Shown piece after piece: positions 11,447 to 20,898 of a stretch of DNA of 64,000 nucleotides; the stretch's first letter is position 1; each line of letters begins with the position of its first letter. A program made the position numbers and the translations under genes. This stretch comes from Streptomyces sp. G-G2 (GTDB lineage: Bacteria; Actinomycetota; Actinomycetes; Streptomycetales; Streptomycetaceae). The notes beneath the pieces were generated by a model, which was given only the letters and a program-made list of their open reading frames with translations, was not told the origin of the DNA and made no database searches. The stretch lies in assembly GCF_030063135.1 (NCBI RefSeq), contig NZ_JASISO010000022.1, positions 1-64,000 on the forward strand. The letters are read 5' to 3'.

Positions 11447-12767
<1,321 letters not shown>

Positions 12768-12908: not shown

Positions 12909-14708
12909 GTGACCGACATTCCCGTGCCCCACCAGCTCACGCCCTCCGACCGCGGCGGCGGGGGTGGTGGCACGGACGACGTCCTCGGTGGACGGCCCCC
13001 AGTGCACCCCGCGCTCAGCGAAGCGGGCCGGATGCTGTGCGCGGGCACCTACCTCGACGCCGCGTACCGCGATCGGGTGATCGATGAGCTGTACGTCCAC
13101 GAGGAGCGCATCGTCGCCCCCTCCTACGGCTTCGACGCCGCCCGCGTCCTCGCCCACGCCCTGCGCGCCCGCCGCGCCGAACTCGGCTGGGCCGCCGGGA
13201 TCATCGGCGCCTGGTTCATCGGCCTGATCCTCACCGGCGGCTTCCTCGCCACCCTGATGCTGCCCTTCCTCCTGCTCAGCGCGTCCCGCTGGCTGCGCTC
13301 GCAGGACAGCCGCCTGGTCCGTCTGCTGGGCGCCGTGCTCCGCGTCTACACCTGGGTGCTCCTGCTCGTCCTGGTGATCGCGATCCTCGGCGTGGCCCTG
13401 GCCGCCGGGAACACCTTCGGACCGCTCGGCTCCGTCGGCGCCGACGTCCTCATGTCCGGTCTCACCAGCTCCTTCGCCAGCTCCGACGACCCCTTCGACT
13501 CCTCCGGCTACGGCTCCTCCAGCTCCTCCGGCACCGCCGCGGTCGTCTGGTGGGTGCCCGCCGTATTCGCCGCCGTCGTCGCCCTCGTCTGGCTCCAGCG
13601 CGGCCAGGCCGCCCGGGCCATCGCCGGGGAACTCTCCCCCCGCCGCTACGCCGACCTCGCGAACGACCCCGCCGAGAACGTCCAGGGCGTCCGCTTCGAC
13701 CGGATCCGCCGCCGGGTGCGGGCCGAGCAGTACAACCCGCTCGTCATGTACGACATCAACGATCCGCTCTGCGGCGCGGGCGAGCCGTACCGCCCCTGGC
13801 ACCTGTCCGTCGAACTCCGCCCGCGCACGGACCTCGGCCCCGACCGCAAGGCCGTCCCCGTCACCAACAGCGACATCGTTCGCCAGATCGTCCCCCTGCT
13901 CCAGGCCCTGCGCGTGCCCTCCCCGCACGGCTCCCCGGAGGCCCAGGCCGCCGTGCTCGACCGGCTGCGCGAACTCGTCATCGACGAATGCGTGTTCCTG
14001 CCCGGCGGCGGACTCCCGCACCGCGACGCCGTCCCGCTCTCCGCCGAGGCCTTCGCCCAGCACCGGGCCGCAGCCATCGAGGAGGGCGGCGAACGCCGCC
14101 GCCACTTCCTGCGCGTCCGGGTCGGCGGCTGGGACGAGAACCTCGTCGTCACCGTCTTCGTCCGCTTCCACACCCAGGGCGCGATGATGATGCTGGAGGT
14201 CGCGCCGCACGTCCTGCTGCCGCTGCGCACCGTCTTCCAGAACGCCGACGCCGACGCCCACCGCTACCTCCACAACAACTGGCTGGGCAAGGCCGCCTGG
14301 GCCCTGCGGCACGCGCCCGGTTCGCTCGCCTCCTCCGTCGTCATCCTGGGCCGCGGCATCGCCAGCTGGTGGCGGATCACCACCGGTGGCCACGGCGGCG
14401 CCCTCCCCGAGGGCCCCGGCCTCTCGGTGCGCGAACTCGCCTCGCAGGACAACGGTTCGCTGTTCCACCTCATGGACCTCGACCGGTATCTGAAAACCAT
14501 TCAGGACCGGGTGGTCAGCGGTGTGACACTGGCCCTGCACGAAGCGGGCTGGCACACCGAGGAGTTCGCCGAGCGCGCGATCGTGGTCGCGGAGGGCGGG
14601 GTGTTCATCCAGTCGGCGAACAACAGCGCCTTCAGTGTCGGCGGCAGCGGACACAGCAACACCACCCACCACTCGGGCAGGAGGAGGAGCAGTGGCCACT
14701 CACGGTGA
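12909..14708 (+). CDS. Large membrane protein with C-terminal FSVGGS...NTTHH motif
   Basis: The product has 599 residues from GTG. Residues 1-90 are soluble. Three hydrophobic regions follow (about 96-126, 143-165 and 215-236), separated by a Ser/Gly/Asp-rich loop. A cytoplasmic domain of about 360 residues includes LRPRTDLGPDRKAVPVTNSD, VRVGGWDENLVVTVFVRFH and FHLMDLDRYLKTIQDRV. It ends in a Ser/His/Arg-rich tail with FSVGGSGHSNTTHHSG, which recurs in the next protein. No enzyme motif is recognised. It is the first gene of a tight three-gene cassette after mdh. Confidence 0.8.
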   Translation: MTDIPVPHQLTPSDRGGGGGGTDDVLGGRPPVHPALSEAGRMLCAGTYLDAAYRDRVIDELYVHEERIVAPSYGFDAARVLAHALRARRAELGWAAGIIGAWFIGLILTGGFLATLMLPFLLLSASRWLRSQDSRLVRLLGAVLRVYTWVLLLVLVIAILGVALAAGNTFGPLGSVGADVLMSGLTSSFASSDDPFDSSGYGSSSSSGTAAVVWWVPAVFAAVVALVWLQRGQAARAIAGELSPRRYADLANDPAENVQGVRFDRIRRRVRAEQYNPLVMYDINDPLCGAGEPYRPWHLSVELRPRTDLGPDRKAVPVTNSDIVRQIVPLLQALRVPSPHGSPEAQAAVLDRLRELVIDECVFLPGGGLPHRDAVPLSAEAFAQHRAAAIEEGGERRRHFLRVRVGGWDENLVVTVFVRFHTQGAMMMLEVAPHVLLPLRTVFQNADADAHRYLHNNWLGKAAWALRHAPGSLASSVVILGRGIASWWRITTGGHGGALPEGPGLSVRELASQDNGSLFHLMDLDRYLKTIQDRVVSGVTLALHEAGWHTEEFAERAIVVAEGGVFIQSANNSAFSVGGSGHSNTTHHSGRRRSSGHSR

Positions 14709-15084
14709 GCGGGGCGGGGCCCCGTACGAGGGACCCTCGGTCCGGATCGGCAACGCCGACGGCAGCAGCTTCAGCATCGGCGGCAGCAACATCACCAACA
14801 CCGTCCACCACGGAGCGGCGACGCCCGCGGCGCCCGGGCCCGAGGAACTCCTCGAAGCGGTACGGGACCTGCGCGCCGCGCTCGTCCGGCTGCCCCGCGG
14901 CGAGGACCGCAACGCGCTCGACGCCGAACTCGACGCCGTCGCCGGTGACCTGGAGGGCGCGACCGCGATCCGGCCCGGCCTGGGGGAGCGGCTGCGGGGC
15001 GCCCTCACCCGCTGGGCCCCGCTGGTCGAACCGCTGAACGCGGCGACCGCGCTCGGCGCCCTGCTCGTGAGCCTGGGAGGCTGA
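14692..15084 (+). CDS. 130-aa protein sharing the GGS...NT.HH motif with its neighbour
   Basis: The GTG at 14692 follows GGAGGAGGAGC and overlaps the previous gene by 17 bp. Residues about 12-40 (VRIGNADGSS, then FSIGGSNITNTVHHG) mirror the C-terminus of the upstream protein. The rest is a helical domain (LLEAVRDLRAALVRLPRG; LDAVAGDLEGATAIRPGLGE; GALTRWAPLVEPL) ending in a hydrophobic helix. It resembles small actinobacterial proteins filed as DUF5955, but that is from memory. An adaptor role within the cassette is inference. Confidence 0.75.
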   Translation: MATHGERGGAPYEGPSVRIGNADGSSFSIGGSNITNTVHHGAATPAAPGPEELLEAVRDLRAALVRLPRGEDRNALDAELDAVAGDLEGATAIRPGLGERLRGALTRWAPLVEPLNAATALGALLVSLGG

Positions 15085-15087
15085 CCG

Positions 15088-16068
15088 GTGCCACCCGAAG
15101 CCCCCGGCACGCCCCGCTGGGACCCGCAGGCGCAGCGCTGGGTCTGGGACGACCCCGGCCCGCCGCCCGGGCAGTCGCCCGCGCCCGCCGCCCCGCCCGC
15201 GCAGGGCGTGTACGGGCCGCCGCCCACCCTGCCGCCGGAGTACCCGCCGACCCGGGCCGAGGACGCGGGTTCCGGGTGGCCGCCGTCCGGGCCCACGCAG
15301 CAGCTCCCGGTCCAGCCGCCGCCGCTGTCCTATCCGCCGCCACCGCCCCCGGAGTTCCAGCCCGGGCCGCCCGGAGCGCCCCCCGGTGGCGGGTCCCGGC
15401 GCTGGCTGACCCCGGCGACGGCGGGCATCGCGGTGGCCGCCGTCGCGATCGGCGCGGCGGCCGTCTGGTTCATGCTGCGCGACTCCGGCGGCGCGGCTCC
15501 GGACCAGGCGCACGGCACGTCCACGCCCAGCGTGTCGACGTCCGGATCACCTGGCCCCCGTACGTCCGGGACCTCCTCCAGCCCCCGTGCGAGCGCCAGT
15601 GACCTCGTGAGTCCCAGCGCCAGTGCGAGCGGACCGGCGGCGGGCTACACCACGCTCACCGACCCGAAGGGCTTCACGATCGCCGTCCCCAAGGGCTGGA
15701 TCCGCGACGATCCCGGCAACGGTGTCTTCTACCGCACCGCCGACCGCTCCTCGCTGCTCCAGATCTTCCGCGTGGTGGAGCCTGAGCTGAGCCCCCTCGA
15801 CGCCGTCCAGGGGGCCTCGGCCGACCTGCGCCAACGCACCACTGGCTACACGGAGATCAGGGTCGGCGCGGTTCCCGGCGGCTCGGGCGCCTGCGAGCTG
15901 GTCTACGAGTACGACAGCGCGGAATCGCACGGCCGCCGACGGGGCGTCGAACGGGTCTTCGTCGCCCAGGACGGCCTGAAGTGGGCGCTGTTGGCGGCCG
16001 GACCGGCCGCCGACGCGGACACCACGCGGGCGAACCTCGCGGCGGCGGTGCAAGCCTTCCACCCGTGA
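15088..16068 (+). CDS. Single-pass membrane protein with Pro-rich N-terminus
   Basis: The product has 326 residues from GTG, 3 bp after the preceding stop. Residues 1-105 are rich in Pro, Gly, Gln and Trp (PPTLPPEYPP; SYPPPPPPEFQPGPPG). One membrane helix lies at about 112-131 (GIAVAAVAIGAAAVWFML). A Ser/Thr/Pro linker then leads to a folded extracellular domain of about 140 residues (YTTLTDPKGFTIAVPKGWIRDD; VYEYDSAESHGRRRGVERVFV) of the kind found on the outside of streptomycete Ser/Thr kinases and lipoproteins. No kinase domain is present. Confidence 0.8.
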   Translation: MPPEAPGTPRWDPQAQRWVWDDPGPPPGQSPAPAAPPAQGVYGPPPTLPPEYPPTRAEDAGSGWPPSGPTQQLPVQPPPLSYPPPPPPEFQPGPPGAPPGGGSRRWLTPATAGIAVAAVAIGAAAVWFMLRDSGGAAPDQAHGTSTPSVSTSGSPGPRTSGTSSSPRASASDLVSPSASASGPAAGYTTLTDPKGFTIAVPKGWIRDDPGNGVFYRTADRSSLLQIFRVVEPELSPLDAVQGASADLRQRTTGYTEIRVGAVPGGSGACELVYEYDSAESHGRRRGVERVFVAQDGLKWALLAAGPAADADTTRANLAAAVQAFHP

Positions 16069-19614: not shown

Positions 19615-20898
19615 ATGCGCAGGCACACCATCGAGCCCCGCCCCGACTGGCAGCGCATCGTCGAGGAGCAGGGGCTGATCTACCCGCTCACCCGCTACCC
19701 CGACGACTCCCTGCGCCCCTACTGGGACGAGAGCGCCTACTACTCCTTCACGCTGCCCGAGGTCGAGGCGCTGGAGGACGTGGTCGAGGAACTGCACACG
19801 ATGTGCCTGGCCGCGGCCGCGCACATCGTGGACCGCGCCCGGTTCGCGGACCTCGGGATCACCGACCCCCGGCTGTGCGCGCTGATCACCGAGTCCTGGC
19901 GGCGGCGCGCCGAACAGCCCTCCCTCTACGGCCGGTTCGACCTGCGCTACGACGGCCAGGGCGGCCCGGCGAAGATGCTGGAGTACAACGCGGACACCCC
20001 CACCTCCCTGGTGGAGGCGGCGAGTCCGCAGTGGTTCTGGATGGAGGACCGCTTCCCCGGCGCCGACCAGTGGAACTCGCTGCACGAGCGGCTCGTCGAG
20101 GCCTGGCGCCGCCAGGCCCGGCTGCTGCCGCCCGGTCCCGTGCACTTCGCGCACTCGGAGGCCGACGAGCTGGGCGAGGACCTGATGACGGTCGCCTACC
20201 TCCAGGAGACCGCCGAGCAGGCCGGGCTGGCCACCGAGGCCCTGTCGGTCGAGCGGATCGGCTGGGACGGGCTCTCCGGCCGGTTCGTCGACGAGAAGCT
20301 CCGCTTCATCCGCAGCTGCTTCAAGCTCTACCCGTGGGAATGGCTGGCCGAGGACGAGTTCGGCCCGCAGGTCCTGGACACCATGGACCTCGGCGGAGCC
20401 TGCGGTTCCACGCTCTGGATCGAACCGGTCTGGAAGATGCTGCTCTCGAACAAGGCCCTGCTGGCCGTCCTGTGGGAGCTGTACCCGGACCACCCGAACC
20501 TGCTCCCGGCCTACCTCGACGGCCCGCGCGAGCTGGCGCACACCACGGGGTACGTCGCCAAGCCGCTGCTGGGCCGCGAGGGCGACGGGGTCACCCTGCA
20601 CCCCGCGGGCGGGCCCCCGTACGCGCCCCCGTCGGGCGCCGAGGACGACGAACCGATGTGCTTCCAGGGCCTCGCCCCGCTGCCCGACTTCGACGGCAAC
20701 CGCGTGGTGCTCGGCGCGTGGGTCGTCGAGGACGAGGCGGCGGGGCTCGGCATCCGGGAATCCGCGGGGCCGGTCACGGACGAGTACGCCCGCTTCCTGC
20801 CCCACGTCATACTCCAGGCCGACCAGGCCGACCAGGCCGACCAGGCCGACCAGGCCGACCAGGCCGACCAGGCCGACCAGGCCGACCAGGCCGACTAG
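19615..20898 (+). CDS. Glutathionylspermidine-synthase-like ATP-grasp enzyme with repeat tail
   Basis: The 427 residues match the C-terminal synthetase domain of glutathionylspermidine synthase (YjfC/YgiC-like): LRYDGQGGPAKMLEYNADTP, KLYPWEWLAEDEFG, WIEPVWKMLLSNKALLAVLW and YVAKPLLGREGDGV. These ATP-grasp proteins join a carboxylate to an amine, but the bacterial substrates are mostly unknown. The folded part ends at about residue 400 (FLPHVIL). It is followed by nine copies of Gln-Ala-Asp encoded by a 9-bp minisatellite. The TAG overlaps the convergent rocD stop in CTAG. Confidence 0.85.
   Translation: MRRHTIEPRPDWQRIVEEQGLIYPLTRYPDDSLRPYWDESAYYSFTLPEVEALEDVVEELHTMCLAAAAHIVDRARFADLGITDPRLCALITESWRRRAEQPSLYGRFDLRYDGQGGPAKMLEYNADTPTSLVEAASPQWFWMEDRFPGADQWNSLHERLVEAWRRQARLLPPGPVHFAHSEADELGEDLMTVAYLQETAEQAGLATEALSVERIGWDGLSGRFVDEKLRFIRSCFKLYPWEWLAEDEFGPQVLDTMDLGGACGSTLWIEPVWKMLLSNKALLAVLWELYPDHPNLLPAYLDGPRELAHTTGYVAKPLLGREGDGVTLHPAGGPPYAPPSGAEDDEPMCFQGLAPLPDFDGNRVVLGAWVVEDEAAGLGIRESAGPVTDEYARFLPHVILQADQADQADQADQADQADQADQADQAD

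Follow-up and report, generated by a model that had tools for sequence, protein, structure and literature searches.

Two overlapping Streptomyces genes, A and B, that respectively end and begin with the same short motif are the subject of this account. They lie in a window of 64,000 nucleotides, the whole stretch of DNA analysed (Streptomyces sp. G-G2, NCBI RefSeq assembly GCF_030063135.1, contig NZ_JASISO010000022.1, positions 1 to 64,000 of the forward strand). The features of the pair, numbered within the window, are these:

12909..14708, + strand: gene A, encoding a 599-aa membrane protein, the proposed receptor (open reading frame, ORF; motif at the C-terminus)
13176..13601, + strand: membrane region of A, with hydrophobic segments at residues 90-126, 136-174 and 206-231 (hydropathy of A and family mean)
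13632..14591, + strand: predicted cytosolic part of A, residues 242-561, an alpha/beta region at about 278-436 plus long helices (model)
14598..14669, + strand: C-terminal motif of A, GVFIQSANNSAFSVGGSGHSNTTH (profile match, E 5.6e-7)
14680..14689, + strand: ribosome-binding-site-like GGAGGAGGAG, inside the end of A and just 5' of the GTG start of B (by eye)
14692..15084, + strand: gene B, encoding a 130-aa protein, the proposed effector or output partner (ORF)
14737..14808, + strand: N-terminal motif of B, SVRIGNADGSSFSIGGSNITNTVH (profile match, E 2.9e-5)
14839..15075, + strand: four-helix domain of B, residues 50-128, remotely DUF5955-like (block pLDDT 81-94)

The motif shared by the end of A and the start of B

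The two genes overlap by 17 nt. An earlier note, made from the sequence of the window, had pointed to a resemblance between the two termini, and the matching stretches sit where it placed them, at the end of A (GGVFIQSANNSAFSVGGSGHSNTTHHSGRRRSSGHSR) and the start of B (GPSVRIGNADGSSFSIGGSNITNTVHHG). The alignment of about 24 residues that it described is borne out, with 12 of the 24 aligned residues identical. The tail of A scores 70 against the start of B, as compared with 26 +/- 5 for composition-preserving shuffles, none of which (0/300) reaches 70. Plain low complexity was considered as an explanation and rejected on these shuffle controls. Elsewhere the two proteins show no similarity (best E 0.30 when the bodies are compared with the motif removed). 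Within the 8.19 Mb genome, a profile of the motif finds two good matches only, those in A (E 5.6e-7) and B (E 2.9e-5); the next best have E values of 1.56 and 2.61.

The AlphaFold model of A (mean pLDDT 81) has a short helical N-terminus, long helices at residues 77-241, the alpha/beta region at 278-436, further long helices up to 561, and a low-confidence tail at 566-599, mostly with pLDDT below 50. The loop at 168-208 contains no K or R, and the regions that flank it do. Hydropathy, this loop, and the helices of the model together suggest that A has four transmembrane helices with both termini in the cytosol. In B, residues 14-40, which hold the motif, are modeled with pLDDT below 50, and the ordered four-helix domain follows at 50-128.

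Neither protein is readily assigned to a known structure. A sequence search of the PDB gave nothing at E<=1 with the profile of A and a best E of 0.033 with that of B, and Foldseek gave no match to the PDB at E<=0.001 for either. VIA-align places residues 282-549 of A near KA1/START/Bet v1-like folds with Z of about 6, which is inside the stated noise of the tool. Its top matches for B are four-helix bundles of the bacteriocin-immunity type: 2fu2 (Z 10.3, root-mean-square deviation 2.0, 75 residues aligned) and 2ip6 (Z 9.4, deviation 2.9, 84 aligned), values within the noise for helical bundles and to be taken as a lead only. The DUF5955 profile PF19380 matches 33 of 55 aligned members of the B family at E<=1 (best 8.1e-5), and window B itself has no match. 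From its sequence relatives, window B may be a remote member of the DUF5955 family.

Conservation and coevolution of the motif

Orthologous loci were gathered from species contigs (80, all of them Streptomyces records) and from genomes of the genus (30). B was detected by tblastn at 103 of these 110 loci, yielding 98 distinct A/B pairs, and was not found by tblastn at the other seven: L005, L023, L086, L088, L094, L107, and L108. At L023, B is on a separate contig; L107 stops within the tail of A; the tail of L108 has no motif; and L005 is the same place as L144, described in the next section. The earlier note had held that absence of the motif from orthologues of either protein would count against a shared element, but the motif is kept in the orthologues of both. 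Glycine at motif position 15, for example, is present in 100% of the B proteins and 96% of the A proteins of the 98 pairs.

Motifs of the same pair resemble each other (47% identity) more than do motifs of different loci (31%). The distance matrices of the two motifs retain a partial correlation of 0.345 after the distances of the A bodies and B bodies have been regressed out, a value reached by none of 2000 permutations (maximum 0.154). When 145 windows are slid along A, the top five all overlap the motif, and on the B side the best windows also lie at the motif. Two length classes of motif exist, differing by one residue, and all 98 pairs are concordant (42 short/short, 56 long/long). Even when the comparison is confined to the partners of the five nearest relatives (those below 85% body identity), own-pair identity is greater in 76 of 98 pairs (47.2% vs 42.6%).

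The coevolution is also in register. By position, it peaks at offset 0 (0.129), with other parallel offsets no higher than 0.025 and the best antiparallel register at 0.066. Seven of the top twelve coevolving pairs of positions are i-to-i, the very top pair reflecting the length class. The peak at offset 0 persists when the columns affected by the length difference are removed (0.110 vs 0.022 parallel and 0.056 antiparallel), as it does within the long class alone (56 pairs: 0.105 vs 0.009 and 0.041) and within the short class alone (42 pairs: 0.054 vs 0.018 and 0.034). Antiparallel docking was rejected, as coevolution favors the parallel arrangement in register.

The motif copies start only 139 bp apart in the window, and one might suppose that the DNA of adjacent low-complexity stretches has been homogenized, through gene conversion or recent duplication, with no joint function of the proteins; conversion would give similarity in register. 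We regard this as very improbable. Synonymous codons are identical in 730 of 944 cases (77.3%) in own pairs, barely above the figure for the partners of nearest relatives (75.3%), that for far ones being 71.4% (84 of the 98 pairs, those with motif codons that could be read back from the alignment), and gene conversion was rejected on this comparison. Moreover, composition-preserving shuffles fall short of the observed scores, and paralogues of A that lack the motif have no matched neighbors. Since synonymous codons do not follow the match, it is evidently kept at the level of protein, like with like and in register.

At E<=0.01 the motif profile has 88 matches among 150 Streptomyces genomes, in 49 of the genomes, and 87 of these matches lie in A or directly behind A, where B sits (judged by position; one B is on another contig). 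Matches are to be expected in those genomes that contributed rows to the profile; the point is the absence of further matches. The remaining match belongs to L210 (G021:C6), in an ORF at 1797-2873 with a C-terminal motif of the window type at 2781-2849 (E 0.0028); about 300 bp downstream of this ORF is a restriction-endonuclease-like protein (by eye). A second class of motif, A5, has 12 matches in six of the 150 genomes, and these are exactly six adjacent pairs; one genome, G051, had made no contribution to the A5 profile.

The matching is private as well. In eight genomes that carry two pairs, motifs score 49-127 with their own partners and 20-42 across pairs, with no cross-match, and among 56 diverse pairs the mean score is 81 with the own partner and 35 with others. 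Conservation, covariation, strict pairing, and specificity across the genome all uphold the suggestion of the earlier note that A and B have a docking or oligomerization element in common.

Other motifs and other partners in the wider family

More distant homologues of A (19-37% identical to A, among those aligned) carry different C-terminal motifs, which the N-terminus of the next gene repeats: GNVQTGDHSRA and GNAQTGDRSSA at L134, GNQAIGRGATA and GNQAVGHGAQA at L143, NNSFVNGNNNTTNSGTQN and NNSFVTGDNNTTNSGTQN at L146. The next gene has a matched motif at 44 of 59 further Streptomyces A loci, a ratio that is not a population frequency, because the loci were chosen by hand from the match list (60 regions, less L182, excluded because its contig ends). 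Among the 59, L144 (the same place as L005) and L145 (near L095) are close rather than distant relatives, and there are several near-duplicates (L136/L137, L146/L147/L148, and L141/L142).

The downstream ORF was chosen by a codon-usage score blind to the motif, by which an ORF was found at 46 of the 59 loci, with a match in 38 cases at no more than 1 in 300 shuffles. An earlier choice of ORF, which relied on GC at codon positions, put many loci in the wrong frame (15/59 at no more than 1 in 200 shuffles) and was replaced. Five loci (L133, L145, L154, L163, and L179) were confirmed by a scan of all frames over the next 700 bases, in which the best frame is taken and the shuffles are slightly generous, and L166, where the frame of A is broken in the assembly, by adjacent profile matches in its genome, G051. 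The 15 unmatched loci are 11 paralogues of A that have no motif (their tails judged by eye), L129 (interrupted by runs of N), L144, L127, and L180. At L144 (G012) the motif of A is retained and a transposase-like ORF (by eye) replaces B, apparently a natural loss of the partner. Outside Streptomyces, all eight loci are matched at no more than 1 in 300 shuffles; they come from six genomes of five genera. This set was drawn from 118 genomes of the class; a match to A is present in 14, eight of the 14 being Streptomyces. L206 and L209 are one locus, and the partner ORF at L194 has a poor codon score (-0.21) and is absent from the gene-scan listing.

Where the motif is absent, so is the matched neighbor. 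None was found beside the 11 motif-less paralogues, with tails like ..KADVYDA (best 3 in 300 shuffles, at L175), nor beside eight more of the same type (including L205, 4 in 300). The best chance scores of L175 and L205 arise from helical or charged stretches, not from a motif. One such paralogue is encoded by the same genome as the window (L205/L213, G000:C128:188362-189984), ends in ..RKADAYDV, and has no matched neighbor. Found again in many Streptomyces genomes, the motif-less type may represent an ancestral, stand-alone form of A.

In composition the matched segments are prion-like relative to the body of A, enriched 9.1-fold in N and about twofold in Q, T, G, and S, with L at 0.13 and R at 0.38 of their frequencies in the body. 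By eye, the B proteins of L189 and L192 appear to have two copies of the motif ahead of the helical domain.

What follows the motif in B is exchanged from locus to locus. The B proteins of L136, L138, and L152 have a TIR domain of the CAP12/Pycsar family (PF10137; E 3.5e-26 to 1.2e-27, 92-97 bits against a cut-off of 24.7), and those of L140 and L156 belong to the nucleoside phosphorylase family PNP_UDP_1 (E 1.3e-14 and 1e-15). DUF5955 itself is found in B of L134 (E 2e-11, 44.5 bits against a cut-off of 27.1) and, just below the cut-off, in B of L139 (E 9.3e-6, 26.4 bits). The B proteins of L141, L172, and L177 match no family above cut-off. In PADLOC, the model "Effector, PN-superfamily" matches the PNP partners (5.7e-23 and 2.3e-22) and the candidate-defence model PDC-S35 matches the TIR partners; four distant A proteins submitted to PADLOC had no match. 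Outside Streptomyces, L196 and L200 have PNP-like partners (by eye). TIR and nucleosidase-type enzymes are known from antiviral cell suicide, and CAP12/Pycsar-type effectors are regulated by cyclic nucleotides. The earlier note had remarked that similar Asn/Gly/His repeats occur in multi-protein signaling or conflict systems; its pointer to conflict systems gains support from the TIR and PNP effectors among the partners of distant members.

The setting of the locus and what the pair may do

Two genes flank the A/B pair in the window:

11733..12767, + strand: mdh (malate dehydrogenase, named by eye), the upstream neighbor, outside the A/B system
15088..16068, + strand: gene C, encoding a 326-aa protein, proline-rich at its start, that has a single hydrophobic segment and another domain (by eye); accessory

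A homologue of C lies 3' of B at 76 of the 78 loci with enough sequence, and mdh lies 5' of A at 93 of the 109 loci where the sequence extends 1 kb or more upstream. Since both neighbors are kept, the branch represented by the window is a core locus. C may serve as the input sensor of this branch. The earlier note had the motif tie the whole cassette into one complex; it does connect A with B, but C has no match to the motif profile, so the link does not extend to the entire cassette. A, B, and C of the window match no Pfam or NCBIfam family above the curated cut-off; C has a weak match, below cut-off, to TIGR03931 (associated with the type VII secretion system). In PADLOC, A and B have no match at E<=1, and C alone was matched, unconvincingly, at E 0.02.

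We consider that A and B are probably a receptor and its partner, connected through a short homotypic motif that acts in the manner of an amyloid signaling motif, a reading drawn from sequence. The pattern is the one expected of amyloid signaling: adjacent genes, a terminal motif rich in Asn, Gly, Ser, and Thr, disorder, self-similarity in register, many classes of motif, private matching, exchangeable effectors of the suicide type, and, apparently, a doubled motif in some partners. According to this model, A would be anchored in the membrane and expose its disordered C-terminal motif to the cytosol; B carries the same motif in its disordered N-terminus, ahead of the helical domain. On meeting a stimulus, which would be the trigger, A would cluster, and the copies of its motif would stack into a parallel, in-register cross-beta seed. 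Signaling would run from A to B: the seed would template the motif of B, so that B is gathered at the membrane and its domain switched on. In window B this is the four-helix, DUF5955-like domain, which may have the membrane as its target or serve as an adaptor. Since its place can be taken in the wider family by a TIR or nucleosidase effector, signaling would likely end in metabolic arrest or in the death of the hyphal compartment.

Perhaps the motif is instead a constitutive element of docking or co-assembly, through pairing of beta strands or a small oligomer, and A and B form a stable complex concerned with, e.g., envelope stress or regulation, with neither amyloid templating nor cell death involved. 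Such a complex would be in keeping with the overlap of the genes, with a syntenic core locus in which a third gene is conserved, and with a B that is small, helical, and of no known enzyme activity, and covariation and pairing are compatible with any specific homotypic contact. We nonetheless think it unlikely, for it does not account well for parallel coevolution in register, the strong bias toward Asn, Gly, Gln, Ser, and Thr, the radical diversification of motifs with self-similarity kept, or the TIR and PNP partners elsewhere. These four points form a pattern characteristic of signaling amyloids rather than of a folded interface.

Several observations weigh against amyloid-like signaling by A and B. 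The monomer models show both motifs disordered, not beta. A has no sensor domain recognized by Pfam and no relative in the PDB, and window B has no known activity. The exceptional match in G021, the only one of the 88, places the motif on an unrelated membrane protein with no matched neighbor seen, and L127 and L180 have motif-like A tails for which no partner was found. A C-terminal window of B (start 136) correlates with the A motif at 0.31, as compared with 0.36 at the best window of the motif itself, so another part of B tracks the motif of A as well. Of the 56 diverse pairs, only 24 have the own partner at rank one (46 have it among the top three), which we take as cross-matching inside motif classes. 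To these may be added a missing RHIM tetrad, discussed below, and the synteny beside mdh, which is unlike that of a mobile defence gene.

That synteny bears on the output of the pair more than on its wiring. The window pair could itself be an anti-phage system acting through abortive infection, like its relatives that carry TIR or PNP: architecture and gene order are the same, and the partners of distant relatives are defence-type effectors. This variant of amyloid-like signaling is possible but somewhat doubtful, given a locus stable beside mdh in 93 of 109 cases and the lack of PADLOC matches to A and B at E<=1, and use of the same wiring for housekeeping or development is equally likely. 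A syntenic core locus need not have a role in phage defence; its stable place argues for a part in housekeeping or development no less than in defence.

The pair may first be compared with the BASS1-10 motifs, for which Dyrka et al. 2020 is reportedly the original source. They have been described in bacterial NLR/Bell gene pairs (PMC7889193, PMC8086366, PMC9815663, PMC12261475), with the N-terminus of the NLR joined to the C-terminus of the effector (PMC7889193, PMC12261475). As with BASS, a short motif (20-40 residues) is common to two proteins of adjacent or overlapping genes in actinobacteria, there are many unrelated motif families, and the partners may be Bell, TIR, or other domains. Unlike BASS receptors, A is a membrane protein without a recognized NLR/STAND NTPase (Pfam scans of A and nine motif-bearing homologues found no NTPase family). 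The polarity is also reversed, the motif standing at the C-terminus of the receptor and the N-terminus of the effector, whereas the BASS effector has it C-terminal, after Bell; and the helical partner, which is DUF5955-like, may differ from Bell. Without an NTPase, with a membrane receptor, and with reversed polarity, the A/B pair is not filed as BASS, though it would work like it.

In the fungal HET-S, HELLP, and PNP_UDP-associated PUASM systems, a homotypic motif likewise passes a fold from receptor to effector (PMC9815663, PMC7889193, PMC7885112, PMC12881547). HET-s has a doubled motif, as B of L189 and L192 apparently do, and PUASM has PNP_UDP partners. The newly reported pattern of a fungal pair, NxxxGxQYxxxGxGDQNxVSxxxxQxN (PMC12261475), resembles the core GxIGDHNTVT found here. 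The fungal signalosomes differ in being based on NLRs with the receptor motif N-terminal, and amyloid and prion behavior has been demonstrated there, while the case here is made from sequence.

The pattern hydrophobic-x-hydrophobic-G-x-x-N fits 69 of the 98 A motifs and 76 of the 98 B motifs and presumably echoes the residues that follow the RHIM tetrad. RHIM, of RIPK1/RIPK3, is a short homotypic cross-beta motif (PMC9444067), as is proposed for the motif here. It was rejected as an identification: its core tetrad, (V/I)Q(V/I/L/C)G (PMC9444067), is missing from all 98 A motifs and occurs in one of the 98 B motifs and in 2 of the 118 segments that make up the 59-pair set. Effector-associated domains (EADs) and bacterial Death-like domains also couple core components homotypically to exchangeable effectors, including those of nucleoside phosphorylase and TIR type, in multicellular bacteria (PMC7159879, PMC8195603), but EADs are helical domains, whereas here the segment is of 24 residues, predicted to be disordered, on bodies that are dissimilar. 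The effector domains of CAP12/Pycsar TIR (PF10137) and PN-superfamily systems recur in this family, where distant relatives have them at the B position; the family differs from those systems in coupling through a terminal motif to a membrane protein. No earlier description of the A/B system was found in the open-licence literature searched.

A 2021 review of amyloid signaling asks whether signaling amyloids operate in NLR-independent pathways of fungi and bacteria (PMC7889193). The A/B family is a concrete candidate for an answer, with an undescribed type of membrane receptor, many insulated classes of motif, and known suicide-type enzymes among its partners. It suggests that bacteria may relay a signal of alarm or death through prion-like contact, with no need of the usual immune receptors. 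We give roughly even chances to a broader proposal, that there is a large, NLR-independent class of amyloid signaling in prokaryotes, in which actinobacterial membrane receptors bear private C-terminal motifs that template the N-terminal motifs of exchangeable effectors (TIR, nucleosidase, or a four-helix protein). At least one branch would have become fixed as a core locus beside mdh, its wiring serving normal hyphal life (compartment death or envelope alarm) rather than phage defence, and coevolution in register would provide insulated, parallel channels within one cell. If true, amyloid signaling would be widened from NLRs to transmembrane sensing, and nature would have provided a set of orthogonal prion-like switches. 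The family would also offer a first functional lead for DUF5955, a family not named in the open-licence literature searched.

Elsewhere in the window, at about 20820-20895, a 566-aa ORF ends in a run of QAD repeats that arises from a 9-bp tandem repeat.

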